Below are positions 5,801 through 56,662 of a DNA stretch of 64,000 nt, in pieces; within the stretch, counting starts at the first letter, position 1; every line of letters starts with the position of its first letter. This DNA is from an uncultured Sunxiuqinia sp. (lineage in GTDB: Bacteria; Bacteroidota; Bacteroidia; Bacteroidales; Prolixibacteraceae). The notes under the pieces were generated by a model. The model was given only the letters and a program-made list of their open reading frames with translations. It searched no databases and was not told where the DNA came from. The stretch is taken from positions 248,001 to 312,000 of the forward strand of contig NZ_CANLZV010000002.1 in assembly GCF_947495665.1 (NCBI RefSeq), written 5' to 3'. The position numbers and the translations under genes were made by a program.

Positions 5801-6832
5801 TTATTTGGACCAGTTGGTAGACTTAATCCAGTCGACCACAAACTTGGCATTTTCGTAAGGGATGTCTGGCAAAAAACCATGTCCCAGGTTAAAAATCCAT
5901 TTGTCGTTCTTTTGGAAGAATGGTATGAATTTTTCCAGTTCCCGGGCAATTTCCTCTTGCGGGGCATACAGTTGCCGAGGATCCAGGTTCCCTTGCAAAC
6001 CAACTTCGGGATGAACCATTTCGCGGGCATCCTCAATGGGCATTTGCCAGTCGATACTCACAAAATCGGCAATCTCAGGCGTCACATATTTTAAGCCGGT
6101 GCCAATTCCTTTCGGGAAAAAGATAAACGGTGTACCGGTCTCCCGAACAGCCCGACTGATTTGTTTGACGGCAGGCATAAACAATTCGTTATACAATTCA
6201 ACCGGGATAAGGTTGGCGTGCGTTTCAAACAGTTGGAAGGCATTGATGCCATGCTCAATTTGTTTTTTCGCGTAAATCACCGACAGGTCGGCAATGGCAT
6301 CGATCAGCCGTTTGGCTTCTTTTTTGTGCTGGAACAAGAACTTGATCGCCTCCGGGAAATTCGGGTTCGAGCTGATTCCCTGAATCATGTAGCACAAGGT
6401 GGTTAGCGGCGCTCCGCAAAACCCGATCAAAGGAATGTTGGCCGGACGCTGACGGATGATTTCATCAATGGCACCATAGATGTATTCCAGTTTGGAGGGA
6501 TCCGGATTCAGATGATCGGCCGGGTTGGTAAGGCCTTTCAAAGGCTTGTTAAACACCGGCCCGTGATCGGTAAACTCCAGCTCCATGCCCATGGCGTTGG
6601 GAATAACCAGAATATCGGAGAACAGAATGGCGGCATCCACTCCCAAATCGTAAATAGGCATCAGGGTTACTTCGGCAGTCAGCTTGGCATCGTCCATCAA
6701 CTCGCGGAAGGTGTATTTTTCTTTCAACTGGTTGTAGTTGGGCAACACACGTCCGGCCTGGCGCATAAACCATACCGGAGGCCTTTCGGTCTTCTTTCCC
6801 TGAAGTGTATCTAGAAATAGTGATTGCATCAT
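5801..6832 (-). CDS. hemE: Uroporphyrinogen decarboxylase
   Basis: HemE decarboxylates the four acetate side chains of uroporphyrinogen III to give coproporphyrinogen III. The diagnostic N-terminal motif PxWxMRQAGR is present (PVWFMRQAGRVLPNY, with the substrate-binding Arg pair), as are DAAILFSDIL and GFCGAPLTTLCYM. I place the start at ATG 6832 (MMQSLFLDTLQG, 343 residues). The longer frame beginning with GTG at 6874 adds 14 residues not typical of the family and would nearly touch hemL. It is the last gene of a six-gene haem cluster, 56 bp downstream of hemL, and is followed by a strong terminator. Genes for coproporphyrinogen oxidation and ferrochelatase are not in this window. Confidence 0.95.
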   Translation of the reverse strand: MMQSLFLDTLQGKKTERPPVWFMRQAGRVLPNYNQLKEKYTFRELMDDAKLTAEVTLMPIYDLGVDAAILFSDILVIPNAMGMELEFTDHGPVFNKPLKGLTNPADHLNPDPSKLEYIYGAIDEIIRQRPANIPLIGFCGAPLTTLCYMIQGISSNPNFPEAIKFLFQHKKEAKRLIDAIADLSVIYAKKQIEHGINAFQLFETHANLIPVELYNELFMPAVKQISRAVRETGTPFIFFPKGIGTGLKYVTPEIADFVSIDWQMPIEDAREMVHPEVGLQGNLDPRQLYAPQEEIARELEKFIPFFQKNDKWIFNLGHGFLPDIPYENAKFVVDWIKSTNWSK

Positions 6833-6888
6833 TTGATTGTCATTAGTGATTAATACTTGTTTGTGGCGGAACACAGCCTGGCGGGTAT

Positions 6889-8178
6889 TTACAGGCTTTT
6901 CAGGGCCTGTTCGTTGGCTTCAATTACCCGTGCAATATCCTCATCGGTGTGTGCATCGGTAATGAATAAACACTCAAACTGCGAAGGAGCCAGGTAAATA
7001 CCGCTTTCCAGCGATTTTTTGAAATAGGCCGCATAGCGCGCGGTATCCGATGTCATGGCATCGTCAAAGCTTTTGACGGCTTGGTTTTCAGTGAAAAACA
7101 TCGTCATCATTGCTCCAATCCGGTTGATCACAGCGGGGATGCCTGTTTTCTCCAGGTTGGCTTTCAAACCTGCTTCCAGCAGGGCTGCTTTTCGCTCCAG
7201 TTCATCGTAAATGGAAGGATTGTTTTTCAGGGTGCTGAGCATCACACAACCAGCAGCCATGGCCAACGGATTGCCCGAGAGCGTTCCGGCCTGGTAAACG
7301 GGCCCGTCGGGAGCCAGCTTGTCCATAATTTCCTTGCGGCCACCATAAGCGCCAACAGGAAGTCCGCCACCAATAATTTTCCCCATGGTTGTGAGGTCCG
7401 GCTCAACGCCAAAACGTTGTTGTGCTCCTCCGGCAGCCAGGCGGAAGCCGGTAATCACCTCATCAAAGATGAGCAGTGCGCCATATTCCTGGGTAATTTT
7501 CTTCAAGCCTTTTAAAAAGCCTTCTTCAGGCAACACCACGCCCATGTTTCCGGCCACCGGTTCCAAAATAATGGCTGCAATGTTGTCGCCATGTTGTTTG
7601 AACAGTTCTTCAACCGACTCCAGGTTGTTGTAATCGGCTGTCAGCGTATCTTTGGCTGACGCTTTGGTTACGCCGGGGCTGTCGGGCAAGCTGAGGGTAA
7701 TTGCTCCAGAGCCGGCTTTAATTAAAAAGCTGTCGGCATGACCGTGGTAACAGCCAGCAAATTTGACTACCAAATCGCGGCCGGTAAATCCACGAGCCAG
7801 GCGCAAGGCGCTCATGGTTGCTTCGGTTCCGGAGTTGACCATCCGTACTTTTTCTACGGAAGGCACCATGCTGGTAATTAGCTCAGCCATCTCATTTTCA
7901 ATGAGGGTGGGGGCACCATAGCTGGTTCCCAGCTCCGCGGCTTGCTTAACTGCTTGCACAATTTCTTCGCACGCATGTCCCAAAATCATTGGGCCCCAGG
8001 AAGCCACAAAGTCCAGGTATTCGTTTCCATCGATGTCCCAGATTTTAGCTCCTTTGGCTTTGGCAATAAATACCGGATCGGCATCTACGCTTTTAAAGGC
8101 ACGCACAGGCGAGTTAACCCCACCGGGAATCAGTTGTTTTGCTTTATCAAATGCTTGTATGCTTTTGTGTAGTTCCAT
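6889..8178 (-). CDS. hemL: Glutamate-1-semialdehyde 2,1-aminomutase
   Basis: This PLP enzyme moves the amino group of glutamate-1-semialdehyde to give 5-aminolevulinate, the second step of the C5 pathway. At 429 residues it has the normal family length. Visible features are the N-terminal [12 protein letters not shown], the GT-rich PLP phosphate loop [16 protein letters not shown] (115-130), [11 protein letters not shown] with Asp239 contacting the pyridine nitrogen, and [18 protein letters not shown] with Lys267 as the Schiff-base lysine. It lies between hemB and hemE on the minus strand, with a 53-bp gap from hemB. That gap contains several near-copies of TTTCA/AATTCC and no obvious promoter. 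Confidence 0.96.
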
Positions 8179-8231
8179 ATTTCAGTTTCAAATTTCAGGT
8201 TCCAAATTCCGTTCTCAGAGGCTTCAATTTT

Positions 8232-9224
8232 TTAGACCCGGTTGCCTTTTTCAAGTTCACTTAAAACAAATTCTTTGGCGTGATAGGTGATAATCACATC
8301 GGCTCCGGCCCGTTTCAGGGAAGTCAGAATTTCCTTGATCAAGCGTTGCTCATCAATCCAGCCATTGGCTGCAGCTGCTTTTACCATCGAGAATTCGCCA
8401 CTTACATTGTAGGCAACCACAGGTACATTGTAGGTTGATTTTACCCGGTTGATGATGTCCATGTAGCTTAAAGCCGGTTTTACCATCACCATGTCAGCCC
8501 CTTCTTCCAAGTCGGTTTCCACCTCACGTAAGGCTTCATCGCCATTGGCCGGATCCATCTGGTAAGTGCTGCGGTCTCCAAATTGAGGAGCACTTTCGGC
8601 CGCATCTCGGAAAGGACCGTAGAATCCGGAGGCATATTTGGCTGAGTAAGCCATAATTGGCGTGTTTGAAAATCCGTTGGCATCCAGTGCTTCGCGAATA
8701 GCAGCAACCCGGCCATCCATCATGTCGCTGGGAGCAATAATGTCGGCACCAGATTTGGCTAAGGTCACCGATTGAGCAGCCAGTGTTGCCAAGGTGCTGT
8801 CGTTATCCACGTCGCCATCAACAATGGTTCCGCAATGCCCGTGAGTGGTGTATTCGCAGTTGCATACATCAGCTACAATCATAACTTGCGGCACTTCAGC
8901 TTTAATGGCACGAATGGCCTGAGGCACAATGGCATCGTGTTGACAGGCAACTTCACCGGTTTCATCTTTTTCGGCAGGAATACCGAAAAGCAAAATTTTA
9001 TCGATCCCTGTGCGATCCACCAGGTCTTTGACTTCCTTTACCAATAAATCGATCGACAGCTGAAAGTTGCCGGGCATGGATTTGATGGGGTTGCAGATAT
9101 TCTCTCCAGGAAGAACAAAATAGGGCATGATTAAATCATCACGGTTCACTTCTGTTTCGCGTACCATATTGCGAATGGTAGCCGATTTTCTTAGTCTTCT
9201 TAGTCGTGTTATTGGAAAGCTCAT
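8232..9224 (-). CDS. hemB: Delta-aminolevulinic acid dehydratase (porphobilinogen synthase), zinc type
   Basis: HemB condenses two 5-aminolevulinates to porphobilinogen. It is 330 residues long. The two Schiff-base lysines are seen in YSAKYASGFYGPF (Lys196) and MVKPALSYMD (Lys249). The metal site DVCNCEYTTHGHCG carries Cys121, Cys123 and Cys131, the three-cysteine zinc ligand set, so this is the Zn-dependent rather than the Mg-dependent form. The N-terminal arm (MSFPITRLRRLRKSATIR) is the usual family opening. Its start is 5 bp after the hemD stop, so the two are probably translationally linked. Confidence 0.96.
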   Translation of the reverse strand: MSFPITRLRRLRKSATIRNMVRETEVNRDDLIMPYFVLPGENICNPIKSMPGNFQLSIDLLVKEVKDLVDRTGIDKILLFGIPAEKDETGEVACQHDAIVPQAIRAIKAEVPQVMIVADVCNCEYTTHGHCGTIVDGDVDNDSTLATLAAQSVTLAKSGADIIAPSDMMDGRVAAIREALDANGFSNTPIMAYSAKYASGFYGPFRDAAESAPQFGDRSTYQMDPANGDEALREVETDLEEGADMVMVKPALSYMDIINRVKSTYNVPVVAYNVSGEFSMVKAAAANGWIDEQRLIKEILTSLKRAGADVIITYHAKEFVLSELEKGNRV

Positions 9225-9229
9225 ATTTT

Positions 9230-9994
9230 TTAGTTTTTAATTTTTGCCTGATAATAGTCGATTATTGTTTGAGCCATGCCTTCGTAGCTTGGCTCTTCTG
9301 AAGTTGCCACAGGCTCACCTCCATACTTGCGAATGGCCGCTGTTGTTGTGGTTCCGATGCTGACAAAGCGTAGTTGATCTGCAGACTTGCTGACCTTCTC
9401 CAAAATTGCCCTAACCGATGAAGGGCTGGTTACCAACAGAAGATCGTAACGATCATGTTCCACCCATTCCATAAATCTTGGGTCCAGCTGCTCGCTGGAG
9501 CAGGTTTGATAAGCATTGATCCGGTCAATGGAGGCTTTCGATCCCAATTGCTGCTTTAGTGTATCGGGGGCTAAATTGCCCAAAACCAGCAAGATATTTT
9601 CATTGGCTTGTACCACATCAATAAACTGAGTTGCAAAGTCAACGGCTGATTTTCCGGAGCCAATGAATGCCGGATCCACCTTGTATTTTCGGAGGTGGAT
9701 CGCTGTTTTTTCCCCAAGCGCTGCTACTTTGCACGAAATAGAAGGATACCGATTGGTGAACGGTTCTACCGCATTTTTGCTGGTGAAAATCAGCCAGTCG
9801 TAATCGCTTAAATCTGTTTGTAGCTGAAAGGGGAGAGGTGAAATTTCAATTACTGGCATGGAGAATACGCTTGCTCCTTGAGCAGTCAGCATTTCAGCCA
9901 ATTCATCCTGTCCGGTTTTGGGATAGGTACAAATAATCACCTTGCCTTGTAATATGTTTGTATTTTGTTTCACACGCTTCTTGAAATGATTCAT
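9230..9994 (-). CDS. hemD: Uroporphyrinogen-III synthase
   Basis: HemD cyclises hydroxymethylbilane to uroporphyrinogen III with inversion of ring D. The family has poor sequence conservation, so the assignment rests on position between hemC and hemB together with the fold pattern: two alternating alpha/beta lobes, an N-terminal beta-strand KVIICTYP, YDWLIFTSKNAVEPF (the SxNAV signature) and RYDLLLVTSPSSVRAIL in the second lobe, then FVSIGTTTTAAIRKYG. These are standard HemD landmarks. At 254 residues it is of normal length. The gap to hemC upstream is 123 bp, the longest inside the cluster. Confidence 0.88.
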   Translation of the reverse strand: MNHFKKRVKQNTNILQGKVIICTYPKTGQDELAEMLTAQGASVFSMPVIEISPLPFQLQTDLSDYDWLIFTSKNAVEPFTNRYPSISCKVAALGEKTAIHLRKYKVDPAFIGSGKSAVDFATQFIDVVQANENILLVLGNLAPDTLKQQLGSKASIDRINAYQTCSSEQLDPRFMEWVEHDRYDLLLVTSPSSVRAILEKVSKSADQLRFVSIGTTTTAAIRKYGGEPVATSEEPSYEGMAQTIIDYYQAKIKN

Positions 9995-10117
9995 GAATTC
10001 GTGCTATTGGGGTGCATGGTTCAGGACGAGCCGATCATTGGTATTCTATTTTCGGGAGCCTTTGTTGCACTTTAATAGCATGGATTGCCGTTTGGTAAAA
10101 TTTGAGACCAAGCCGCA

Positions 10118-11056
10118 CTAAGCTTCGGATGTGGGACGGATACTGTCCAGAATTTCCTTGCCACCATCGTCCAGAATGGCCTGGGCCAATTCGATGGCTT
10201 TTTCTGATGCCTCTTCCAGACTTGCCTCAATCGATTTCCGGATGCGTTTGGCTCCGTTCAGACTGGCTACCATGCCGGTTAGCTTGATTTGATCGCCTTT
10301 CACTTCCGAAAAACAGCCAACCGGAACCTGACAACCTCCTTCAAGTTCGCGCAAGAGTGAGCGTTCGGCCAGGGTAGTAGCCCGGGTTGGTTCATCGGTA
10401 ATGGCATCCAACAGAAGCTGAGTGCGTTCATCATCTTCGCGAATTTCAATGGCGATGGCTCCCTGGCTGATGGCAGGAAGCATGATTTCTGTATCCAGCA
10501 TTTCTGTAATTACATCCTCGTAACCCAAACGCAAGATTCCGGCTGCAGCCATAATCAGTGCATCGCAATGGCCGTCGTTCATCTTTTTCAGGCGGGTCTC
10601 CACATTCCCACGAATATCTACAATCTGCAGGTCGGGGTTAAAATGCAGCAACTGAGACTGACGTCGCAGGCTTGAGGTTGCAATTTTATCTTTGGCTGTG
10701 AAGTCTGCTAATTTTCGGCCATCTTTTGAGATGAAAACATCCCGCACTTCGGCCCGTTTCAGCATGCCGCCAATGATGAGGTTTTCGGGCAGCTCAGTAG
10801 GCAAATCTTTTAAACTGTGTACCGCCAAATCAATGGTGTTGTCGTAAAGTGCCTGTTCAATTTCTTTGGTAAACAACCCTTTGTCGCCAATCTTGGAGAG
10901 GGCAACATCTAATATTTTATCCCCTTTGGTTTTGATAATTTCCAATTCGAATTGGAGGTTGGGGTGTGCTTTTTCGAGTTCGCTTTTTACGGTTTCAGCC
11001 TGCCATAGGGCAAGCTTGCTGCCACGCGTTCCTATTTTAATGGTGTTTTTATTCAT
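10118..11056 (-). CDS. hemC: Hydroxymethylbilane synthase (porphobilinogen deaminase)
   Basis: HemC polymerises four porphobilinogens into hydroxymethylbilane on a covalently attached dipyrromethane cofactor. The N-terminal IGTRGSKLALWQA, the HSLKDLPT motif with the catalytic Asp84, the cofactor-contacting ATSSLRRQSQL and DIRGNVETRL, and the cofactor cysteine Cys242 in ELEGGCQVPVG are all present. It is 312 residues long. Its ATG lies inside the 3' end of hemA (8-bp overlap), which implies translational coupling with the rate-setting first enzyme of the pathway. Confidence 0.97.
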   Translation of the reverse strand: MNKNTIKIGTRGSKLALWQAETVKSELEKAHPNLQFELEIIKTKGDKILDVALSKIGDKGLFTKEIEQALYDNTIDLAVHSLKDLPTELPENLIIGGMLKRAEVRDVFISKDGRKLADFTAKDKIATSSLRRQSQLLHFNPDLQIVDIRGNVETRLKKMNDGHCDALIMAAAGILRLGYEDVITEMLDTEIMLPAISQGAIAIEIREDDERTQLLLDAITDEPTRATTLAERSLLRELEGGCQVPVGCFSEVKGDQIKLTGMVASLNGAKRIRKSIEASLEEASEKAIELAQAILDDGGKEILDSIRPTSEA

Positions 11057-12299
11057 GAGTTTGAGAGAAAAGGTCGTTGATTACTTTAATATATTCGGTT
11101 TTTCGGCCATTGTCACTGATGTTTTTCAGGTTCCGAATCATGGATTTAACTAGTTTTTCGGCGATATGTTTGCCATATTTTTCCATGTTGTGGTATTCCT
11201 CTTCATTGTGGAATCGTTTGAAGACGGCCAGCTCGGATGCATTGATTTCATTGACACCCGAAATGATATTCTGAATGGCTGGTGACAAGTTCTGAATACT
11301 TAACCAGTCGGAGAATTCATTCAGCTTTTTGGAAATTATTTTTTCAGCAGTGACAATGTAGCTTTTCTTTTTTTCCATGTTCTGGGCAACCACTTCTTCC
11401 AGGTCATCCACATTGTACAGACTAACGGATTCCTGTTCGGTAATTTTTGGGTCGATGTTACGTGGAACACCCAAATCAATAAATACGGTTTGTTTTTGTG
11501 TGTTTTCTTTGCTGAGAACTTGCGGGGTGATTAAAGGCTTTTTACAAGAGATGGAACTAACCACAATGTCAGCCTCCTGAATGCCTTCTTGCATGGCTTT
11601 AAAATCGACCACCTGGCCACCATAGCGCTTGGCTAGTTCTTCGGCTTTGGCAGTGGTCCGGTTGGTTACCAGAATGTTTTGACAGCCTTTTTTATACAGG
11701 TTTTTGATGACTAGTTCTCCTGTTTCGCCGGCACCAATCAGCAGAATTTTTTTGTCGGGAAGTTGATCAAAAATGCTGTTGCACTTTTCTACTGCGGCAT
11801 AGCTTACCGAAAAAGCTCCGGTGCTCATAGCTGTTTTGGTGCGCACTTGCTTGCCGGTTTCCAAAGCTTTATGGAACAAGCGGGTTAGCAATTTCCCGGC
11901 TGAACCAATTTCTTCGGCATGGCTGATTGCTTCTTTAATTTGAGCTACAATTTGATATTCGCCCAAAACCATTGACTCCAATCCGGACACCACACGAAAC
12001 AAATGGCTGGCAGCCGATTTACCTTCGTACTGATAAAAGTGGGATTCGATGCCGTCTTCTTCCTGAATGTGTTTTTTTAGATAATGAAATAAGATATGGA
12101 ATGCGCCCGGAGAGCAACATTCATCAGCGGCGAAATACAATTCGGTGCGATTGCAGGTCGAAATGATTACGAGTTCTCCAATATTCTTATTTTTCAAAAT
12201 GGTCTGTGACAAATCGGTGTACTCTTCTTTATTAAGAGCAAACTTTTCACGTATATGTACGGGTGCCGATTTATGACTTAAGCCTACTACTCCAATCAT
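11049..12299 (-). CDS. hemA: Glutamyl-tRNA reductase
   Basis: HemA reduces glutamyl-tRNA(Glu) to glutamate-1-semialdehyde with NADPH, committing glutamate to tetrapyrroles by the C5 route. The catalytic domain shows GLSHKSAPVHIREKF and the nucleophile Cys49 in ISTCNRTELYF. The linker has SGLESMVLGEYQI. The NADPH domain begins LLIGAGETGELVIKNL (about 189-204), and the C-terminal helical dimerisation domain follows from about residue 310. It is 416 residues long. In other bacteria HemA is the haem-regulated control point. It is the first recognised enzyme of the cluster, preceded 51 bp upstream by a small membrane protein gene. Confidence 0.96.
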   Translation of the reverse strand: MIGVVGLSHKSAPVHIREKFALNKEEYTDLSQTILKNKNIGELVIISTCNRTELYFAADECCSPGAFHILFHYLKKHIQEEDGIESHFYQYEGKSAASHLFRVVSGLESMVLGEYQIVAQIKEAISHAEEIGSAGKLLTRLFHKALETGKQVRTKTAMSTGAFSVSYAAVEKCNSIFDQLPDKKILLIGAGETGELVIKNLYKKGCQNILVTNRTTAKAEELAKRYGGQVVDFKAMQEGIQEADIVVSSISCKKPLITPQVLSKENTQKQTVFIDLGVPRNIDPKITEQESVSLYNVDDLEEVVAQNMEKKKSYIVTAEKIISKKLNEFSDWLSIQNLSPAIQNIISGVNEINASELAVFKRFHNEEEYHNMEKYGKHIAEKLVKSMIRNLKNISDNGRKTEYIKVINDLFSQTHE

Positions 12300-16036: not shown

Positions 16037-17833
16037 TTAAAATGAAAAACTGGCGCCAATTAGTAAATTGAGGCCTTGTTGTGAGTAGCCAAGCCAGTTT
16101 TCATATTTCTGGAACGCAACATTGTTCATGCGTCCCCAGAAGCTAAGATTGGGGCTGTATTGGTACTCAACGCCTACGTTTAGGTCAACATAGGAGCCAA
16201 GCGTATGGATGGTTCTGTTTACCTCTTGAGGACCAACGGTTGATTCCATTGGGAAGTAGAGCTCGTTTTGCTCAAGTGCTTTCCGTTCCCCCTTAAAGAA
16301 AATGTCGGCGTTAAACTTCAAGGGTCCTTCCGGGTTGATAATTGTTGATAGCGTCAGCTCAAAATCGGGTTTGTTATAGGCTTCTTCCAGCGAATCCAAG
16401 GTATAGGAAAAGTAGTTGGCTTGTAAATGAAAGTTGACCAATTCAGATGCTGTGTAATAAAACTCAGCGCCTAAAGTTACCTGCTTCAGGTCGTCGTAAA
16501 GAACATCAAACGTGTTTGAACGGGTAACAGTTGGCAGATCAATTACCGGTGATACCGGCGGAATGATCGTTTTCGTGTTGATCAGGTAAAAGTGTTCGTC
16601 TTTAATGTTGGCATATTCGGCCTGAAAGCGGTAGTTGAGCTTTGGTGTGAACTTTCCTTTAATACCTCCGGAAAGGATGTAACGGTACTCGGTGTTGCGA
16701 ATATCCTGCGTTGGGGTGACAAACCGGTTCTCCGCAGCGATAACCGAATAGTGGTTCTGCTCTAGGCGTCCGTCAATGGCAGCAAACAGGGTCATTGTAT
16801 TTTCGATGGGTGACCAGTCAGCCTTGATGTTCGGCGTCACCAGTATGCGTGCATCATCATCGTCATCTAAAAGAGTGAAAGCGTTTAAGCCCAATTGTAA
16901 TTTTGCCAGGTCAGCTTGCAGCAAAAAGGCTGGGCTCAAATCAATTCGGATTTGTTGCTTGTCGCCATAATCTTCTGTAATTTCTTTAATAACTCCATCG
17001 GTTTTCAGGAAGGACACGGAGGCATCCAGAAGTCCTTGGTAGCTGTCGTAATCTTTTTGGCGTGACGTTCCCAGTTTGATGTAGTTCTCGGTCTGGTCGG
17101 TTTTGGTTCCGAAGTGATGGAAGTATAAATCTACGCCATAGTTCATGTCTGCACGCGAGTCTTCATCGTTGTTCAGGTTAAGCTGAATCCCGCCTTTCGA
17201 AAAGGCCTGATCTTCATTCCAGTAAGGGAAAAGCAGCTCTTTGTCTGCATCTGGAAGTGCTTCTCCGGTGTAACCGTAATAGCGATGTGCATGCCGATTG
17301 AAAAACAGCTTGGTGTTCAGGCTTGACCGTTTGAAAAAGTGCTTGGTGAATAGTTCAACGCCATTTTCGCTGTGCGGAGCATCCACTTTGTCGTCATTCT
17401 CCAGCTTGACCGAACCATGTGAGGAAAGGTGCTTAAAATGCATGCCTAAAATGGCGTTTTTCCCGGCTTGGGTGTTAAAAAACAATTCGCCGTAAGGAGT
17501 CATGTAATTTCCAAATCCGGCTTTTAGCAATCCTTTGCCAAGCTCTGCCTGAGGTTCGCCCACCATTTCCGCAGCAGGTACGGGTTCTACTTCAAAAGTG
17601 CTGAAAACAGGCTGTGCGTTGATTTGATAATTAAATACCGGCTTGTCGCGTTTTTCGTCCTGAACTTTAGGGATGTCATTGATTTTAAAAACATCTGAAA
17701 CGCTTGGTTGGTATGCTTTTACTACCTCTACTTCTTGGGTTAGTGTGGTGTCCTGTTGTGCTGTTGCCAGGTTGCAGCTCAACACGGTTAATAGAAAAGC
17801 AGGGATATAATTAAGATATGATTGGCTCATCAT
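16037..17833 (-). CDS. Outer-membrane beta-barrel protein (TonB-receptor-like, no plug seen)
   Basis: The 598-residue protein has a signal peptide (to about residue 25, ending ATAQQD), then a conserved VEVVKAYQPSVSDVFKIND segment and a Pro-rich linker. About 490 residues of alternating amphipathic strands rich in Tyr/Phe/Asn follow, ending GASFSF with a C-terminal Phe for BAM recognition. Annotators often call such proteins TonB-dependent receptors, but I see no TonB-box/plug domain. The VEVVKAYxP segment is a recurrent motif of a Bacteroidota family found next to large TPR proteins. The start is 8 bp after the stop of the upstream TPR gene, so the two are one operon and probably one envelope complex. 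The substrate is unknown. Confidence 0.75.
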   Translation of the reverse strand: MMSQSYLNYIPAFLLTVLSCNLATAQQDTTLTQEVEVVKAYQPSVSDVFKINDIPKVQDEKRDKPVFNYQINAQPVFSTFEVEPVPAAEMVGEPQAELGKGLLKAGFGNYMTPYGELFFNTQAGKNAILGMHFKHLSSHGSVKLENDDKVDAPHSENGVELFTKHFFKRSSLNTKLFFNRHAHRYYGYTGEALPDADKELLFPYWNEDQAFSKGGIQLNLNNDEDSRADMNYGVDLYFHHFGTKTDQTENYIKLGTSRQKDYDSYQGLLDASVSFLKTDGVIKEITEDYGDKQQIRIDLSPAFLLQADLAKLQLGLNAFTLLDDDDDARILVTPNIKADWSPIENTMTLFAAIDGRLEQNHYSVIAAENRFVTPTQDIRNTEYRYILSGGIKGKFTPKLNYRFQAEYANIKDEHFYLINTKTIIPPVSPVIDLPTVTRSNTFDVLYDDLKQVTLGAEFYYTASELVNFHLQANYFSYTLDSLEEAYNKPDFELTLSTIINPEGPLKFNADIFFKGERKALEQNELYFPMESTVGPQEVNRTIHTLGSYVDLNVGVEYQYSPNLSFWGRMNNVAFQKYENWLGYSQQGLNLLIGASFSF

Positions 17834-44415: not shown

Positions 44416-45828
44416 ATGTCTCTAAAACTGTTTCTGCTAAATACCTTTGGCGGTATTAAAGCCACTTCAAAGATCGAATCGCAAAAAGACTCTCTTTGGA
44501 AAGATTATCATGTATTTGTACAAGTTGAACAATCGGATGAACTGAAAGAGTTTTTGCTGTTGGAAGAAAAAGTAAAGTCTGGTTCTTTCAAGAAAGCGAA
44601 GGCACAACTGAAAAAATTGAAATTTAAAGGCAGCTCTGAAGAGCGGCAATTGAAACAGTTTAACAAACTAAAACGAAACAAACGCTTGCAGCAATACTTG
44701 CAGGTGGCAGATTCGGCCGATTTGAAACGCTACGAAAATCTGAAAGAGGGAAATGACTTGGATCGTTATTTCGAACTGGAAAGAATTATCCAACAAGGAG
44801 CAGGTGCTTCCGAAGAAGAAAGCAAAGCCCTTAGGGAAGAGTTTAAGCAGCTAAAAGCATCAGCCGATGTACAGTTCTTCCTGAAATACCCCAATTCAGC
44901 AGCTTATAAGAACTATCTGCACATGCAGAAATCAGAGGAACGACGTACCTTTAATGAGCTGAAAGCTGTGATTGAGTCGGACGAATTTAAAGAGCGCAAA
45001 AACTACCTGGAAGACCCTAAGAAATGGGAGAAAAGTCAGGAGCACAAAGAAGAACAGCGTTACCTGGAATTGAAAAATAAGCCGGAAATACAGCTCTATC
45101 AAAAATACAAGAATACCAATGCTCTGGATTTTCCTAAAAACTGGGAACTGGTTTTTGAGGACCAGTTTGAGAACACGGAGTTGGATCGGTCCAAATGGAA
45201 AACCATTAATTATTGGGCCGAGAAGACCGTCGGAAAGAATTTTTCGCAACATGGCGATTTACAGGCTTTCGCCGATGGGAAAAATGTACAAATAGCCGGG
45301 GAACGCCTTCGAATTCAAGTCAAAAAGGAAAAGCGGAAAGGCTTGGTTTGGAACCCGGTTTTGGGTTTTGTTGAAAAGGAAATGGATTATTCGTCGGACA
45401 GCCTGACCACCGGTGGAATTTTTGAAGCTCAATATGGTATTTTAGAAGCCAAAATTAAGTATAACCCGGATAAGAACTTTCAGGATGTTTTTTACTTGGG
45501 AGGCGAACAAAATGGGGCACGGCTTAATTTATTCGAGTGTGGGGCCAAGAGTCAGTTTGGCTTGAGCGCTTCACCAGCAGGGCAGGCAGAAGCGAACTTT
45601 TCCTTGTCGGGCTTATCAGCCGGCAAGCTGTACATTTTCTCCATGGTTTGGGAAAAAGGCAAGCTTAGCTGGAAAATCAATGACAAGGAGTTGTTTGCAG
45701 TAAATTCCAATGTTCCGGACTATCCGATGTTTTTGAACTTAACATCGCTGGTCATTCAGGATAGCCAGTCAGTTTCCCATCAGTTTGATGTGGACTGGGT
45801 TCGGTTTTATCAAAAGAGAAAATCTTAA
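44416..45828 (+). CDS. Helical-repeat protein fused to a GH16-like domain lacking its nucleophile
   Basis: The 470-residue protein has no convincing signal peptide. Residues about 20-235 are charged, helical and repetitive: modules of roughly 40 residues recur with F/Y-x-x-L, a short S-x-E/D turn and L-x-x-Y (for example SDELKEFLLLEEKV, SADLKRYENLKEG, SEERRTFNELKAV). Residues about 240-467 look like a GH16/concanavalin-A lectin fold: ELVFEDQFENTELDRSKWK, GGIFEAQYGILEAKIKY, VFYLGGE, FSMVWEKGKLSWKINDKELF and VDWVRFYQ. Where GH16 enzymes have ExDxxE, this reads RLNLFE (369-374), so the nucleophile Glu and assisting Asp are Arg and Asn while the acid/base Glu374 remains. A binding rather than hydrolytic role is inferred. 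It has its own terminator. Confidence 0.7.
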   Translation: MSLKLFLLNTFGGIKATSKIESQKDSLWKDYHVFVQVEQSDELKEFLLLEEKVKSGSFKKAKAQLKKLKFKGSSEERQLKQFNKLKRNKRLQQYLQVADSADLKRYENLKEGNDLDRYFELERIIQQGAGASEEESKALREEFKQLKASADVQFFLKYPNSAAYKNYLHMQKSEERRTFNELKAVIESDEFKERKNYLEDPKKWEKSQEHKEEQRYLELKNKPEIQLYQKYKNTNALDFPKNWELVFEDQFENTELDRSKWKTINYWAEKTVGKNFSQHGDLQAFADGKNVQIAGERLRIQVKKEKRKGLVWNPVLGFVEKEMDYSSDSLTTGGIFEAQYGILEAKIKYNPDKNFQDVFYLGGEQNGARLNLFECGAKSQFGLSASPAGQAEANFSLSGLSAGKLYIFSMVWEKGKLSWKINDKELFAVNSNVPDYPMFLNLTSLVIQDSQSVSHQFDVDWVRFYQKRKS

Positions 45829-49424: not shown

Positions 49425-50747
49425 TTAGCATCCAGGAGGAGTTTGTTCTCCTGCTTTTTCATGGTACCACTTGAGCGGGAAAGATGATGGCCGTTCAATT
49501 GGAAGACCGTACAGCCGATCCATTACCAAGCTGGCCAAAACTCCGAGTGCTCTGGACACGCCAAACAGGACGGTGTAGAAGGAATGTTCTTTCACGCCAT
49601 AGTAATACAACAAGGAGCCCGAGTAAGCATCAACATTAGGCCAAGGGTTTTTAACTTTGCCAGTGGCTTCCAGAATTGGAGGAACGACACGGTGAAGCGT
49701 ATTCACAATGTTGATGAGCTTATCATCTTTTACATATTTCTTGGCAAATTCTTGTTGTGCCGTAAAACGGGGATCGGTTTGGCGAAGTACGGCGTGCCCA
49801 TAACCTGGAATGACGCGTCCTTCATCCAATGTACGTTTGGTGTAGGCTACAATTTGCTCTTCGCTTGGGCTATCCGTGTCCAATTCCTGCATCATGCTAA
49901 AAATCCAGTTGATGACCTCCTGGTTGGCATAACCATGAAGCGGGCCTGCTAAGCCAAGCATACCAGCGGCATAAGCATAGTAGGGGTTACTAAGTGCTGA
50001 TCCAACCAAATGGGTGGTATGTGCTGAAACATTTCCTCCTTCATGATCGGCATGAATAACCATGTACAAACGAAGCAAACGCTTTACTTCTTCGCTGTCG
50101 TGTCCCATCATATGTGCCAGGTTACCGGCCCAGTCCAAGCGTGGATCCGGCTCAATGTGTTCATCGTTGAAAAACTGACGACGGTAAATGTATGCGGCAA
50201 TTCGTGGCAAACGGGCAATCAGGTTCATCACATCTTCATAGGTCGTGTCCCAATAGTATTTTTTATGAACGCCTGCGCGATAAGCTTTTTGAAAAATAGA
50301 ATCCGTAGCCATACTGAGGATGGCCGAACTGAACTGAGTCATGGGACGTGAGTTCTTCGGAATGGCGTCAATCACGTCAAAAACATGCTGAGGTACATGT
50401 GCACGAGTGGCCCAGTCCTTGCTAATATTTAAAACATCATCGCGTTCTGGTATTTCGCCAATGAGCATCAGGTAAAACAAGCCTTCGGGAAGTGGTTCTC
50501 CGTCTGGGTTTAAGCGGGGTAGCTTTTCGCGTAGTTCCGGGATGGTATATCCGCGAAAGCGAATTCCGGTGGTTGGGTCTAACTTGGAAGTGTCAGTAAT
50601 TAAGCTGGGAACGCCTTTCATCCCTGTCATTACTTGACCAATAGTAACATTGGCAATCACTTTATCACCATGCTCATTTTTGATCCGTTGGTACTCGCTA
50701 ACGCATTTGCTCGCCTTTTGATAAAACCTATTCTTAATGTATTCCAT
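49425..50747 (-). CDS. gltA: Citrate synthase, mitochondrial-like
   Basis: Citrate synthase condenses oxaloacetate and acetyl-CoA. At 440 residues it has the length of the animal mitochondrial enzyme. Segments track that form closely from memory: DPTTGIRFRGYTIPE, EPLPEGLFYLM, DHEGGNVSAHTTHLVGSALS, GLAGPLHGYANQEV (His271), GRVIPGYGHAVLRQTDPR (His318), KNPWPNVDAYSG (Asp373) and YTVLFGVSRALGVL. His271, His318 and Asp373 are the catalytic trio. The NADH-inhibited hexameric E. coli-type features are absent. It is the last of four minus-strand TCA genes, 35 bp after the NAD-type icd. Mitochondrial-like citrate synthases are known in Bacteroides and Geobacter, so this is a phylum trait rather than a recent transfer. 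Confidence 0.95.
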   Translation of the reverse strand: MEYIKNRFYQKASKCVSEYQRIKNEHGDKVIANVTIGQVMTGMKGVPSLITDTSKLDPTTGIRFRGYTIPELREKLPRLNPDGEPLPEGLFYLMLIGEIPERDDVLNISKDWATRAHVPQHVFDVIDAIPKNSRPMTQFSSAILSMATDSIFQKAYRAGVHKKYYWDTTYEDVMNLIARLPRIAAYIYRRQFFNDEHIEPDPRLDWAGNLAHMMGHDSEEVKRLLRLYMVIHADHEGGNVSAHTTHLVGSALSNPYYAYAAGMLGLAGPLHGYANQEVINWIFSMMQELDTDSPSEEQIVAYTKRTLDEGRVIPGYGHAVLRQTDPRFTAQQEFAKKYVKDDKLINIVNTLHRVVPPILEATGKVKNPWPNVDAYSGSLLYYYGVKEHSFYTVLFGVSRALGVLASLVMDRLYGLPIERPSSFPLKWYHEKAGEQTPPGC

Positions 50748-50782: not shown

Positions 50783-52051
50783 TTAGTGAATATTTCGGAT
50801 TATTTCATCAGCAAACTCTGTGGTAGACAGCAAGGTTGCGCTTTCCATCATGGTGTGCAAATCTGAAGTGACCCGACGTTTGGAAAAGGTGTGCTCCATG
50901 GCATCAAACACGTGTTCAGCAGCCTCATGCCATCCGAGGTATTCCAACATCATCACTCCGGACAAAAGCAAGGAGCTGGGGTTGGCTTTACCGGTTCCGG
51001 CAATATCAGGAGCAGTTCCATGGGTAGCTTCAAAAATGGCAAACCCACTTTGGTAGTTGATGTTGGCGCCTGGTGAGATGCCTATGCCGCCGACCATGGC
51101 TGCAAGCTGATCTGAAATATAATCGCCATTTAAGTTCATGGTGGCAATCACCGAATGGTCATAGGGATGTAACAAGCTATCCTGTAAAAAGGCATCGGTT
51201 ATCGTATCTTTAATGATGACTTTTCCGGATTTTTTGGCTTCTTCCAGTGCTTTGGAAGCATCAAGCTGTCCTTTTTCCGCTTGAATTTGCTGATACTGGC
51301 GCCAGGTGAAAACCTGTTTGCCAAATTCCGATTCAGCCAGGTCATATCCCCAGTTTTTAAAAGCACCTTCGGTAAACTTCATAATGTTTCCTTTATGGAC
51401 CAAGGTTACAGATGGGAGATGACGAGTAATGGCATACTGAATGGCTGAGCGAACCAATCGCTCGGAGCCATCTTTGGAAATTGGCTTAACGCCATAAGCG
51501 CTGCTTTCCGGAAAACGTATTTGGGTGCTTATGCCCATTTCATTGATCAGAAAATCCTGAAACTTTTTCGTTTTCTCATCGCCAATTTCAAATTCAATAC
51601 CAGCATAAATATCTTCGGTGTTTTCCCTAAAGATATGCATATCAACCATGGAGGGGTAGCGAACGGGAGAGGGGACCCCTTTAAACCAACGTACCGGGCG
51701 TAGGCAAACGTATAAGTCAAGTGTTTGCCGCAGGGCTACGTTAAGCGAGCGAATGCCGCCGCCAACAGGGGTTTCGAGCGGCCCTTTTATACCAACCAAG
51801 TGCTCTTTAAAGGAATCCAGCGTTTCTTGAGGCAGGTAATTGCCAGTTGCTTTGAATGCCTTTTGTCCGGCCAAAACTTCTTTCCAAATGAGTTTTCGGG
51901 AAGAACCATAAGCTTTCTCAACAGCGGCATCCAATACGCTTTGGGCCGGCTTGGTAATGTCCTTGCCAATCCCATCACCCTGAATAAAGGGAATGATGGG
52001 ATGGTCAGGAACTATCAAACGACCATTTTCAAGTTTAATCTTTTCTCCCAT
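50783..52051 (-). CDS. icd: Isocitrate dehydrogenase, E. coli-type fold with NAD-type specificity residues
   Basis: The 422-residue protein has the E. coli Icd layout: [15 protein letters not shown], the substrate loop [12 protein letters not shown] (contains the Ser phosphorylated in E. coli), [28 protein letters not shown] and [15 protein letters not shown]. The cofactor positions differ from the NADP enzyme: E. coli Lys344, Tyr345, Tyr391 and Arg395 correspond here (offset +5, ungapped) to Asp349, Ile350, Ser396 and Thr400. Asp-Ile at the first two is the pattern of NAD-using relatives and of the engineered NAD-specific E. coli enzyme, so NAD use is inferred. Its start overlaps the 3' end of the upstream NADP-type icd by 17 bp, implying translational coupling. 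Confidence 0.9.
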
Positions 52052-53285
52052 GGGTTATAGCTGTTATTTTGCTTTTCAGGTTTTGATCGATGGCATTTAA
52101 GAATTCCTCGGTTGTCAGGTAATGTTCCTGCTTAAGGTCTTTCTCGTGAATAATCAGTGCCAGGTCTTTGGTCATTTTGCCACTTTCAACCGTTTCAACA
52201 CATACCTGCTCCAAGGTGTTGGCAAAGTCAATCAACGCTTGGTTCTCATCCAATTTTCCACGGAAGGCCAGGCCTCTCGTCCATGCAAAAATTGACGCAA
52301 TGGGGTTGGTTGACGTGGGATTTCCTTGTTGATGCTGGCGATAGTGGCGGGTTACCGTGCCGTGGGCTGCTTCAGCTTCCATGGTTTTTCCATCGGGCGT
52401 TATAAGCGTAGAGGTCATCAGTCCTAAAGAACCAAACCCTTGTGCTACGGTATCGGACTGTACATCCCCATCGTAGTTTTTACAAGCCCACACAAAGCCT
52501 CCTTCCCACTTCATAGCGGCGGCAACCATGTCATCAATCAAGCGGTGTTCATAGGTGATGCCGGCTGCCTCAAATTTTTCTTTGAATTCTTCATTGAAGA
52601 CTTTTTCAAACAGATCCTTAAAGCGGCCATCGTACTTTTTCAGAATGGTATTTTTGGTGGACATGTACAGGGGCCATTTTTTGCTTAGTGCCTGATTCAT
52701 ACAAGCCCGGGCGAATCCAATTATTGATTCATCAGTGTTGTACATAGCCATGGCTATTCCATCGCCTTCAAAGTCATACACATCATACGATTGCACTTCG
52801 CCACCATCTTCAGGGGTGAACGTGATGGTAAGTTTGCCTTTTCCTTTAGTCAGGAAGTCGGTTGCCCGGTACTGGTCACCAAAGGCATGACGACCAATGC
52901 AAATGGGTTTTTTCCACCCGGGAACCAGGCGCGGGATGTTATTAATAATAATGGGTTCGCGGAAAACAGTTCCTCCCAAAATATTTCGGATGGTGCCATT
53001 GGGCGAGCGCCACATGTTTTTCAAATTGAACTCGGTTACACGCAATTCATCAGGAGTAATGGTGGCACACTTAATTCCCACACCATACTTTTTGATGGCG
53101 TGAGCCGCGTCCACAGTAATTTGATCATCTGTCTCATCGCGCTTTTCCATTCCCAGATCGTAGTATTTTATATCCAGATCGAGGTAAGGGAAAATGAGTT
53201 TTTCTTTAATAAATGACCAAATAACCCGGGTCATTTCATCTCCGTCCAGTTCAACAACTGGATTTGCTACTTTAATTTTATCCAT
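52035..53285 (-). CDS. NADP-dependent isocitrate dehydrogenase, eukaryotic (IDH1/IDH2) type
   Basis: The 416-residue homodimer-type enzyme resembles human IDH1 and IDH2, not the E. coli form: [25 protein letters not shown]-like [10 protein letters not shown], the substrate Arg in [15 protein letters not shown] (Arg132, at the same number as the human IDH1 hotspot), [28 protein letters not shown] in the metal/substrate region (Asp residues near 251 and 272), and [12 protein letters not shown] with Arg313 and His314 as NADP phosphate contacts. NADP specificity is therefore expected. It makes 2-oxoglutarate and NADPH. It is second in the operon, 19 bp after acn and overlapping the next icd. Two paralogous-function but non-orthologous IDHs in one operon is unusual. 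Confidence 0.93.
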
Positions 53286-53304: not shown

Positions 53305-55566
53305 TTAGTTATTTTGTTGTTTGATCAGATTTAATGCTGAGCCCGCCTTGTACCATTCAATTTGCTGGGCGTTGTAAGTATGATTTAATTCGATTGTTTC
53401 TTGTGAACCATCGGCATGAACCAACTGTAACTGCACAGGTTTGCCAGGAGCAAAGTCAGCCAGGTTGATGAAATTAAAGATGTCATCTTCCTGAATTTTA
53501 TCGTAATCGGCTTCCTGGGCAAAAGTAAGTGCCAGCATTCCTTGTTTTTTCAGGTTGGTTTCATGAATCCGGGCAAAGGATTTTACAATTACCGCTTTAA
53601 CTCCCAGGTGGCGAGGCTCCATGGCCGCATGTTCGCGTGAAGATCCTTCGCCATAATTGTGGTCACCAACAACAACGGTTGGAATACCTGCAGCTTTGTA
53701 GGCGCGTTGCACTTTAGGTACTTCATCATAGCCTCCTGTCAGTTGATTTTTCACCTTGTTGGTTTCGCCGTTAAAGGCATTTACAGCACCAATCAGCATG
53801 TTGTTGGAGATGTTGTTCAGGTGCCCACGGAAGCGTAACCAGGGACCAGCCATCGAGATGTGGTCGGTGGTGCATTTTCCTTCGGCTTTGATCAGCAGTT
53901 TGGCTCCATTCAGGTTTTGACCATCCCACGGTTCGAAGGCTTTGAGCAGTTGTAAACGCTCTGAATCGGGGGAAACAATGACTTCAACTGAAGAGCCATC
54001 CTCGGCAGGTGCCTGATAACCGGCATCTTCAACAGCAAAGCCTTTGCTGGGCAATTCTTCTCCTGTTGGCGGATCCAGTTTAACTTCTTTTCCATCCTCA
54101 TTAAGCAACTTATCGGTGAGCGGGTTAAAGGTTAAGTCACCAGCAATAGCCAGGGCGGTAACCAGTTCCGGAGAAGCTACAAAGGCATGGGTGTTGGGGT
54201 TTCCGTCAGCCCGTTTGGAGAAGTTACGGTTGAACGAGTGCACAATTGTGTTTTTTTCTCCTTTTTCGGCTCCGGGGCGGTTCCATTGTCCGATACATGG
54301 GCCGCAAGCATTAGCAAAAACACTTGCTCCAATCTTATTGAAAATATCGATAAATCCATCACGCTCGATGGTGTAGCGCACTTGCTCAGAGCCCGGAGTA
54401 ATGGTAAATTCCGATTTGGTCTTCAGCTTTTTGTCGACCGCTTGCTGTGCCAGTGATGCCGCACGCGAAATATCTTCGTAGGATGAATTGGTACAAGAAC
54501 CGATCAGTCCAACTTCAATTTTGGTTGGCCATCCTTTTTCCTTCGCAACTTTGGCCACTTGTGAAATTGGGGTTGCCAAATCGGGTGTAAACGGCCCGTT
54601 TAAGTGAGGTTCCAGCTCGTCCAGATTGATTTCGATCAGTTGATCGAAGTACTTTTCAGGTTGAGCGTAAACTTCGGGGTCGGCAGTTAAATGTTCTTTA
54701 ATGCCATTGGCTAAATCGGCGACTTCTGCGCGGTCGGTTGCCCGTAAGTAACGTTCCATGCTTTGGTCGTAGCCAAAGGTTGATGTGGTTGCCCCAACTT
54801 CGGCTCCCATGTTACAAATGGTTCCTTTGCCGGTTGCAGAAAGAGATTCCGCACCTTCTCCGAAATATTCAATAATAGCACCTGTTCCGCCTTTTACGGT
54901 CAGTATGCCAGCTACTTTTAGTATAATGTCTTTTGGGGCTGTCCAGCCGTTTAATTTTCCAGTGAGTTTTACACCGATTAATTTGGGAAATTTAAGTTCC
55001 CAAGCCATACCGGCCATTACGTCTACCGCATCGGCACCACCGACACCAATAGCCACCATGCCCAACCCGCCGGCATTTACTGTATGCGAATCGGTTCCGA
55101 TCATCATTCCACCGGGGAATGCATAATTCTCAAGCACCACTTGGTGAATAATTCCGGCACCCGGTTTCCAAAATCCGATGCCGTATTTATTGGAGACAGA
55201 CTCCAAAAAATTGAACACCTCCTTATTGCTTTCGAGGGCAAATTTCAGGTCTGTTCGTCCGCCCACACTGGCTTGGATTAAGTGATCGCAATGCACCGTA
55301 GATGGCACTGCGGTCCGGTTTTTGCCTGAGTTCATGAACTGAAGCAGAGCCATTTGAGCCGTTGCATCCTGCATGGCTACCCGGTCGGGCGCAAAATCAA
55401 CGTAGTCAACGCCACGTTTGAAATCGGCTACTTCTTCAGGACTGAAAAGGTGTGTGTATAAAATCTTTTCAGAAAGTGTGAGTGGTTTTTTTAAAATGTC
55501 TCTGGCTTTGGTTATACGAGGGCCAAAATTCTCGTAGGTTTTCTTTATCAGATCTAAATCAAACAT
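53305..55566 (-). CDS. acnA: Aconitate hydratase, mitochondrial-like
   Basis: Aconitase isomerises citrate to isocitrate with a [4Fe-4S] cluster. It is 753 residues long. Cluster ligands are Cys358 in [14 protein letters not shown] and Cys421/Cys424 in [11 protein letters not shown]. Other landmarks are [72 protein letters not shown] and [17 protein letters not shown] in the swivelling C-terminal domain. The segment order and wording match human ACO2 more than IRP1/AcnA or AcnB. It is the first gene of the acn-icd-icd-gltA operon. The aconitase-icd-citrate synthase set with a mitochondrial-like aconitase has been described in Bacteroides fragilis (recalled, not checked). Confidence 0.96.
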
Positions 55567-55903: not shown

Positions 55904-56662
55904 TTAAGGAATGAAGCTCAGCAGCGTGTCGCCGCGAAGACCTCTGCGGAGTGTTTCCAACGGAATGACTTCCGATTGGGAAATATTGCCCAGGTTGACA
56001 TTGGAGCCCAACAATTTGATAAACCACACTTGCTGGCTTTTGAGTGGGGCTTCCCATAAAATATGTTCGGTGTCAATTTCTTTTTTAATGTCCATGATGA
56101 GCTGGCTGTTGGCTGAGCCATCTTCTTTGTAAATGCCCATGTTTCCGCTTTCGCGTGCTTCAGCAATGACTTTCCAGGCGCCGGCTTCCAGTTCTGTTTT
56201 CATCCAGGAGACCCACTCTTCGTTGCTAATCTCCTTGCCTTTTAACTTGGTCCCGACTTCTGAAAAAATCTGAAAATCTTTTGCCAGCAGGTTGATGTAT
56301 TCACATTTTTTGTCATGCTCAATGGGAAGAACACCGTCAGAAACTTCGGCTGTTTCAACACCACTTTCAGTAATAAATTTGCGGTAGTCGTCAAACATAT
56401 TGCGGGCAATAAATGCTTCAAACAGTGTACCTCCAAAGTAGGGTTTAATGCCTGCTTGCTGATACAGTTTGATTTTCTCTTTTACACCCGGAGTTAGCAG
56501 GCCGGTACCAAATCCTAGCTTGACAAAATCAGTGTATTCTGATGCGACTTCGCATAAGTCTTCGGCTTCGCGGAGGCTAAGTCCTTTGTCCATCACCATC
56601 GTAATGCCTGATGATCTTGGCTTTTCAGGACGTCCAGGAATAAAGGGTAAGTTGAAATTCAT
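55904..56662 (-). CDS. comA: Phosphosulfolactate synthase (ComA-like)
   Basis: ComA adds sulfite to PEP to make (2R)-phospho-3-sulfolactate. The 252-residue TIM-barrel protein shows the N-terminal family signature KPRSSGITMVMDKGLSLREAED, VKLGFGTGLL, KPYFGGTLFEAFIA, VETAEVSDGVLPIEHDKK, FSEVGTKLKGKEIS and KVIAEARESGNMGIY. First known from coenzyme M synthesis in methanogens; bacterial homologues contribute to sulfolactate or sulfonolipid-type metabolism in some lineages. No ComB phosphatase, ComC dehydrogenase or cysteate-forming gene lies in the window, so the end product is unknown. It follows a TPR gene with a 2-bp gap and ends at a strong terminator, so the two form an operon. Confidence 0.9.
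   Translation of the reverse strand: MNFNLPFIPGRPEKPRSSGITMVMDKGLSLREAEDLCEVASEYTDFVKLGFGTGLLTPGVKEKIKLYQQAGIKPYFGGTLFEAFIARNMFDDYRKFITESGVETAEVSDGVLPIEHDKKCEYINLLAKDFQIFSEVGTKLKGKEISNEEWVSWMKTELEAGAWKVIAEARESGNMGIYKEDGSANSQLIMDIKKEIDTEHILWEAPLKSQQVWFIKLLGSNVNLGNISQSEVIPLETLRRGLRGDTLLSFIP

Follow-up and report, generated by a model that had tools for sequence, protein, structure and literature searches.

Why does one bacterial gene block carry two isocitrate dehydrogenase (IDH) genes of unrelated subfamilies, and do their products serve different cofactors? The question is raised by a 64,000-nucleotide stretch (the window) of contig NZ_CANLZV010000002.1 from an uncultured Sunxiuqinia sp., for which an initial annotation had proposed that one transcript makes an NADPH-producing and an NADH-producing enzyme. 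We consider it likely that the block serves the initial, oxidative steps of the citric acid cycle, with a division of labour between an NAD- and an NADP-linked IDH that would have arisen when a type II gene (icd2) was added to an older type I gene (icd1).

The gene block and its internal junction

Both IDH open reading frames (ORFs) were recovered on the minus strand exactly where they had been placed initially, including their 17-bp overlap. The features of the block are as follows.

53305..55566, minus strand: acn, mitochondrial-type aconitase, which opens the block (TIGR01340 aconitase_mito, 1167 bits, cut-off 825)
52035..53285, minus strand: icd2, type II homodimeric NADP-type isocitrate dehydrogenase, 416 aa (TIGR00127, 755.6 bits, cut-off 397)
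52035..52051, minus strand: icd2/icd1 overlap of 17 bp, from the ORF coordinates
50783..52051, minus strand: icd1, type I isocitrate dehydrogenase, 422 aa (NF005425, 629 bits, cut-off 490; TIGR00183, 596 bits, cut-off 567)
49425..50747, minus strand: gltA, citrate synthase (NF007128 citrate (Si)-synthase, 581 bits, cut-off 344)

The order on the minus strand is acn, icd2, icd1, gltA, with spacings of 19, −17 and 35 bp. Against the eukaryotic model TIGR01793 gltA scored 573 bits, under the cut-off of 620. A terminator-like hairpin (55876–55850) lies upstream of acn on the same strand, and no minus-strand terminator-like sites were found between the four genes; on the grounds of the short gaps and of the absence of such internal sites, the block is probably co-transcribed as one operon. 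Sigma-70-like promoter sites were not more numerous than in shuffled sequences, and the pattern TTTG-N18-24-TANNTTTG, which we take to be Bacteroidota-like promoter sequence, gave a single match in the window (4 expected by chance), not directly upstream of acn.

Elsewhere in the window, a ComA-like phosphosulfolactate synthase gene (PF02679; slightly below the NCBIfam cut-off) adjoins the block at 55904–56662 on the minus strand, and a row of haem biosynthesis genes (URO-D, class III aminotransferase, ALAD, HemD, porphobilinogen deaminase and glutamyl-tRNA reductase) occupies 5801–12299, also on the minus strand. ORFs of 470 aa (44416–45828, plus strand) and 598 aa (16037–17833, minus strand) had no Pfam or NCBIfam match.

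The junction was compared with that of 12 other genomes of the same family, 10 of which have icd1. In all 10 paired relatives the icd2 stop codon lies ahead of the icd1 start, and in 8 the two are 1–2 bp apart; the overlap in the window is due to the loss, from its icd2, of the stop codon that the relatives have before the icd1 ATG, and the icd2 product ends there in a few-residue extension read out of the icd1 start region. Across the family the icd2–icd1 gap ranges from −17 to 579 bp and the only other overlap is one of 4 bp (L359). Given this range, and since none of the 10 other paired junctions overlaps, the overlap was rejected as a conserved coupling device.

Ten of 78 pairs have a gap of roughly 500 bp or longer. 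Six of these gaps were inspected, and five contain a 127-aa ORF (L383, L384, L341, L180 and L195, some genomes of the Maribellus genus group); the one that was scanned is a GxxExxY-family protein (TIGR04256), short CGCAGATT-type repeats flank the ORF in two gaps, and it looks like a mobile insertion.

Cofactor sites of the two enzymes

The icd2 product carries HGTVTRHYR (Arg313-His314), as do the solved enzymes 3us8 and 1lwd. Together with the TIGR00127 match, this T-R-H motif for the 2'-phosphate identifies it as a type II enzyme, in agreement with its first description as human IDH1/2-like. The motif segment was found in 179 of 182 type II sequences, the others being cut off (L009) or distant (L090 and L091), and it is kept in every type II copy of the family that was examined. 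The window's genome gave no match to the monomeric type III IDH (TIGR00178).

The icd1 product is identical to E. coli Icd at 229 of 405 positions (57%), and all five E. coli NADP-contact positions are changed: K344D, Y345I, V351A, Y391S and R395T (D349, I350, A356, S396 and T400 in its own numbering; E. coli numbering is used below). The initial annotation had named Asp349, Ile350, Ser396 and Thr400 in an E. coli-type enzyme; the NF005425 match and the alignment bear this out and add the replacement at Ala356. At the equivalent of position 292, which we assume also to lie close to the 2'-phosphate in E. coli Icd, the window has His. The ten residues S102, N104, R108, R118, R142, Y149, K220, D286, D310 and D314 are all identical to those that we take to be the isocitrate-binding and catalytic residues of E. 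coli (S113, N115, R119, R129, R153, Y160, K230, D283, D307 and D311).

Chance or pseudogene origin is ruled out by the full-length ORFs, the intact catalytic residues and a pN far below pS in both icd1 and icd2. Synonymous sites are saturated in most pairs, so that pN instead of dN/dS was used; in the same two genome pairs it was 0.083–0.091 for icd1 and 0.028–0.034 for icd2, i.e. the icd1 protein changes faster. Another substrate for icd1 (isopropylmalate, homoisocitrate or tartrate) is unlikely, since the corresponding models score far under their cut-offs and icd1 retains the isocitrate residues S113 and N115.

At positions 344/345/351 the window's icd1 thus has D-I-A in place of K-Y-V, the sequence motif of NAD-specific type I enzymes. 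In the parts of PMC5397045 and PMC10380307 available to us, D-I-A is given for NAD enzymes (A. thiooxidans, Z. mobilis and P. furiosus) and for E. coli Icd engineered to use NAD, K-Y-V for NADP enzymes, K-I-A for a dual-cofactor Methylobacillus enzyme and R-L-V for enzymes that are likewise dual. A search of PDB sequences with icd1 gave 1hqs, which has K-Y at the cofactor positions, as the top match; the NAD enzyme 2d4v (256 of 415 positions identical, 62%, with D-I-A in both) and 1iso, presumably the engineered NAD-type E. coli Icd, both outscored the wild-type E. coli entries. From these motifs, icd1 of the window is predicted to be NAD-linked and icd2 NADP-linked. Automatic annotation would label both genes NADP-dependent, as the two curated type I models that icd1 passes (NF005425 and TIGR00183) bear NADP names.

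The changes in icd1 could also relax cofactor choice rather than switch it, both enzymes being NADPH-making or cofactor-tolerant and serving dosage or different growth conditions. Two-IDH bacteria mostly use NADP for both enzymes according to the accessible text of PMC10574006, the K-I-A and R-L-V enzymes cited above are dual, and 26 of 83 icd1 copies of the family have Lys or Arg at position 292. Against this, the window's icd1 retains none of the five contact residues, three of which have given way to the very set of the engineered NAD enzyme, and 1iso matches icd1 better than the wild-type E. coli entries do; we regard such tolerance as quite improbable.

Distribution of the pair

Type I and type II genes were searched for in 296 genomes of the phylum, 217 of the class, 149 of the order and 140 of the family; the search for type III covered the class and order samples (class threshold, E 1e-60), and co-occurrence in the phylum was obtained by comparing the type I and type II tables. 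Both types were found in one genome in 4 of the 296 phylum, 3 of the 217 class and 2 of the 149 order genomes, and in 81 of the 140 family genomes. The pair characterises the family of the window, not the phylum, whose standard arrangement it cannot be with just 4 positive genomes. It had been called unusual, which is correct for the phylum and the class but not for this one family, where it is common; being kept in more than half of the family genomes searched, it is more general than one window could reveal.

In the class sample type I was present in 64 genomes, type II in 89, type III in 41 and none of the three in 28; pairs observed versus expected were 3 versus 26.2 (I + II), 2 versus 12.1 (I + III) and 0 versus 16.8 (II + III). 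Within the order, 46 genomes carry type I, 24 type II and 18 type III, and 63 gave no match to any of them; the corresponding pair figures were 2 versus 7.4, 0 versus 5.6 and 0 versus 2.9, respectively, all these expectations taking no account of kinship and genome incompleteness. The three types nearly exclude one another in class genomes.

Ten class genomes have two IDH genes: three with types I and II, two with types I and III, and five, from one genus, with two type I genes. A type I copy departing from K-Y-V-Y-R was found in 9 of these 10 genomes versus 5 of 54 with type I alone (Fisher P = 7e-7), a comparison assembled by hand and ignoring kinship; the figures become 8 of 9 versus 5 of 54 (P = 3e-6) without the doubtful genome G759, and 4 of 5 (P = 0.001) when the one genus is counted once. 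The sole type I-like gene of G759 is distant (43% identical), sits on a very long branch and may not be an IDH. A second enzyme is not invariably accompanied by a changed signature: another genome, G072, combines a type I gene of the K-Y-V-Y-R set with a type II gene some 337 kb distant on the same contig. Conversely, the signature also occurs alone: the order sample has 44 type I-only genomes, of which 43 were scored (G353 is a fragment), and 12 of the 43 are off the NADP set (ten x-I-A/V-x-R, one SLAEK and one K-Y-S-Y-R, which is near-NADP). The signature is therefore no proof of a division of labour.

The five genomes with two type I genes (G628, G659, G714, G741 and G764) have one K-Y-V-Y-R copy and one with K-L-V-F-R or K-F-V-F-R; here too, the additional gene has an altered cofactor site.

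The family, in which NCBI also places Maribellus (Prolixibacteraceae), has type I in 14 of 23 genera. Maribellus sp. CM-23 (L092) has the gene order of the window and shares identical icd1 and icd2 sequences with the family genome G494 (L184 and L215). A type I gene is present in 84 family genomes, 83 of which were scored (G577 is a fragment). None of the 83 copies has K-Y-V-Y-R: Ile345 and Ala351 are constant (83/83 each), Arg395 is absent (0/83), and at position 344 Asn predominates (62 copies), followed by Asp (9), Thr (6) and Ala (3), with single occurrences of Gly, Ser and Lys. The stress laid initially on Asp is thus right for the window but falls on a minority state of the family; that Asn is commonest counts against the division of labour, as does the fact that no measurement on an N-I-A enzyme was found in the available portions of the papers. 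Asp344 and the 17-bp overlap are local details of the window, not general features. All ten catalytic residues are present in 78 of the 83 copies, two others differing at one residue and three being partial.

Searching the genomes for adjacent type I and type II genes showed that they adjoin in 78 of the 83 family stretches, where icd2 lies no more than about 590 bp upstream of icd1 and both share a strand. The other five stretches contain no type II gene, and in G445, G492 and G545 (completeness 84%, 70% and 95%) none was found genome-wide. Type II without type I was found in 47 family genomes. Among the stretches from 18 of these, 10 have acn-icd2-gltA without icd1, 5 have icd2 without an acn or gltA match, 2 are cut off by a contig end and 1 (G578) has acn-icd2 with neither icd1 nor gltA in the following 3 kb. 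On the type II tree (FastTree, with several weak forks) the genomes with icd1-less acn-icd2-gltA blocks fall in about six places among the paired ones, which suggests that icd1 was lost repeatedly in the family. In G545 (L378; 490 contigs), conversely, the block is acn-icd1-gltA: icd1 follows acn at a distance of some 110 bp and has the set K-I-A-A-A, which includes the dual-cofactor motif K-I-A; this icd1 is basal in the family clade and the Lys there is either old or regained.

These losses bear on the strongest rival explanation, a passing gene replacement in which the type II gene is displacing an older NAD-type icd1 in one operon slot and no division of labour is maintained. Bacteroidales blocks with either gene alone in that slot (acn-icd1-gltA and acn-icd2-gltA), the scattered absence of icd1 from otherwise intact blocks in 10 of the 18 stretches and the faster evolution of icd1 are all consistent with it; repeated loss and faster protein change also mean that icd1 may be a dispensable leftover. 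A gene on its way out is less easily reconciled with a pair that persists in 81 of 140 genomes and 14 of 23 genera, nor with catalytic residues kept in 78 of 83 copies, a pN far below pS and an invariant Ile345 and Ala351. We consider replacement in progress possible though somewhat unlikely, and division of labour the best explanation.

Origin of the pair, its likely role and comparison with known systems

The order of events was approached through type I trees, one built with FastTree from 169 rows (41 from the family) and one with IQ-TREE from 66 of these rows after removal of six cofactor columns; the two agree. In the latter the family sequences are monophyletic (99/94); their sister group, joined to them at 96/96, is a 15-row clade (100/99) composed of Bacteroidales and of single Brachyspira, Mucispirillum and Zophobihabitans genes. 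The members of this sister clade have D- or N-I sets, with Arg395 kept in 13, and mostly stand in single-IDH acn-icd-gltA clusters: in 10 of 13 loci acn is upstream and a citrate synthase-like gene (27–29% identical to gltA of the window) downstream, while L048 and L148 have no citrate synthase match and the acn gene of L157 is separated from icd by some 4 kb. In L148, from Proteiniphilum, a type II gene is found 1.5 kb further on. The A. thiooxidans sequence sits on a long branch, and its placement is unsure.

A second, separate type I group without the NADP set has six rows (96/79), including a named Chitinophaga and a Sphingobacterium, with sets such as RFMIK, KFMIN, RFMVN and QFMIK. The partner gene is type II in G017 and G091 (the latter outside the type III search) and type III in G002, and G007 has neither. 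The gene order is the opposite one in two Chitinophaga loci (L103 and L106, where type I precedes type II by about 200 bp) and in G091 (L317, about 700 bp), where the type I sets are RFMIK or KFMIN.

Since NAD-like type I sets stand alone in other Bacteroidales, the signature is probably older than pairing, and it was probably the addition of icd2 that made the split. The redox split proposed initially is partly supported by the opposite signatures within one tight same-strand block; its origin would lie not in icd1, whose NAD-like form also occurs alone, but in the arrival of icd2. The direction of events that we infer starts from an NAD-type icd1 between acn and gltA, as in relatives in other Bacteroidales today; a type II gene would have been inserted between acn and icd1 in the ancestry of the family, and icd1 would later have been deleted in several lineages to leave acn-icd2-gltA.

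Under the division of labour, acn-icd2-icd1-gltA would act as one block in the opening, oxidative part of the citric acid cycle, where two dimeric IDHs of unrelated subfamilies oxidise isocitrate. Biosynthesis would draw its NADPH from the type II enzyme, and the NADH made by the type I enzyme would feed respiration or fermentation, the NADPH:NADH output being set by the amount of each enzyme and by the NAD and NADP pools. If this is true, the family, with its paired members, its members that have lost icd1 and the icd2-less member with K-I-A, offers a natural test of how cofactor specificity and the presence of a partner evolve together. As an exception to the one-IDH rule, with opposite cofactor motifs and natural losses of either partner, it allows one to test whether cofactor choice depends on a second enzyme.

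No isocitrate lyase (TIGR01346, E 1e-20) was found in 29 genomes, the window's own included; in a control the enzyme was detected in 6 of 14 known genomes, 5 of them above the cut-off. The lack of a match in 29 of 29 is as expected for an NAD-IDH under the correlation between prokaryotic IDH cofactor use and the glyoxylate bypass described in PMC5397045, the available sections of which also state that prokaryotes usually have one IDH. Most single prokaryotic IDHs use NADP, and a Hydrogenobacter enzyme first named NAD-IDH does not decarboxylate (PMC4518329, as far as its accessible text goes).

Mitochondria run an NAD-linked (IDH3) and an NADP-linked (IDH2) enzyme on one isocitrate pool, with a mitochondrial-type aconitase. 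A transhydrogenase loop has reportedly been proposed for this couple. In such a loop one IDH oxidises isocitrate while the other carboxylates 2-oxoglutarate, so that electrons are exchanged between NADH and NADPH. Opposite signatures in one gene block, the lack of a detected isocitrate lyase and the likeness of the block to the mitochondrial set (mitochondrial-type aconitase and an IDH1/IDH2-type enzyme) would fit a loop in the window's family; the lack of icd1 in many relatives speaks against it, and we find a loop improbable. The broader idea of an operon-encoded bacterial counterpart of the IDH3/IDH2 couple, i.e. an NADH/NADPH redox valve, even a loop, without the glyoxylate bypass, is doubtful too, if marginally less so.

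The component enzymes are known, and for the paired arrangement no published description was found: searches of the open-licence literature gave no paper on a type I/type II pair in one operon and none on Prolixibacteraceae together with isocitrate dehydrogenase, and the accessible part of PMC4360740 yielded nothing on IDH pairs. The closest clusters are in other bacteria. B. fragilis has aconitase, IDH and citrate synthase genes at consecutive locus tags (acnA-icd-citS, BF638R_3569-3567), the same three steps as in the window but with one IDH gene instead of two, and in comparable single-IDH clusters examined here the citrate synthase has just 26–29% identity to that of the window; the available text of PMC11304471 reports no growth defect of the triple deletion in the conditions tested and does not demonstrate 2-oxoglutarate synthesis by this route. 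These observations make the role of such blocks unsure. Xanthomonas campestris, given in the same portion of PMC10574006 as the exception among two-IDH bacteria, resembles the window in having one enzyme per cofactor (IDH1 with NAD, IDH2 with NADP); its pair, however, is type I plus monomeric according to what is available of PMC5397045, whereas that of the window is type I plus type II.

Taken singly, each enzyme has close known relatives. The NAD-IDHs of A. thiooxidans (2d4v) and Z. mobilis share with icd1 the type I fold family and the D-I-A motif, and the 2d4v set (D-I-A-G-A) also replaces Tyr391 and Arg395, as in the window; by identity, icd1 is slightly nearer to the three Bacteroidales type I sequences checked (64–67%) than to 2d4v (62%). 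Human IDH1/IDH2-type enzymes and the bacterial 3us8 match icd2 over its full length and have the same T-R-H, and nothing notably distinguishes icd2 from the human type save its short C-terminal extension. With its mitochondrial-type acn and IDH1/IDH2-type icd2, the block of the window resembles the mitochondrial set. The mitochondrial IDH3, for its part, is a regulated hetero-oligomer from another type I branch, encoded by separate genes.
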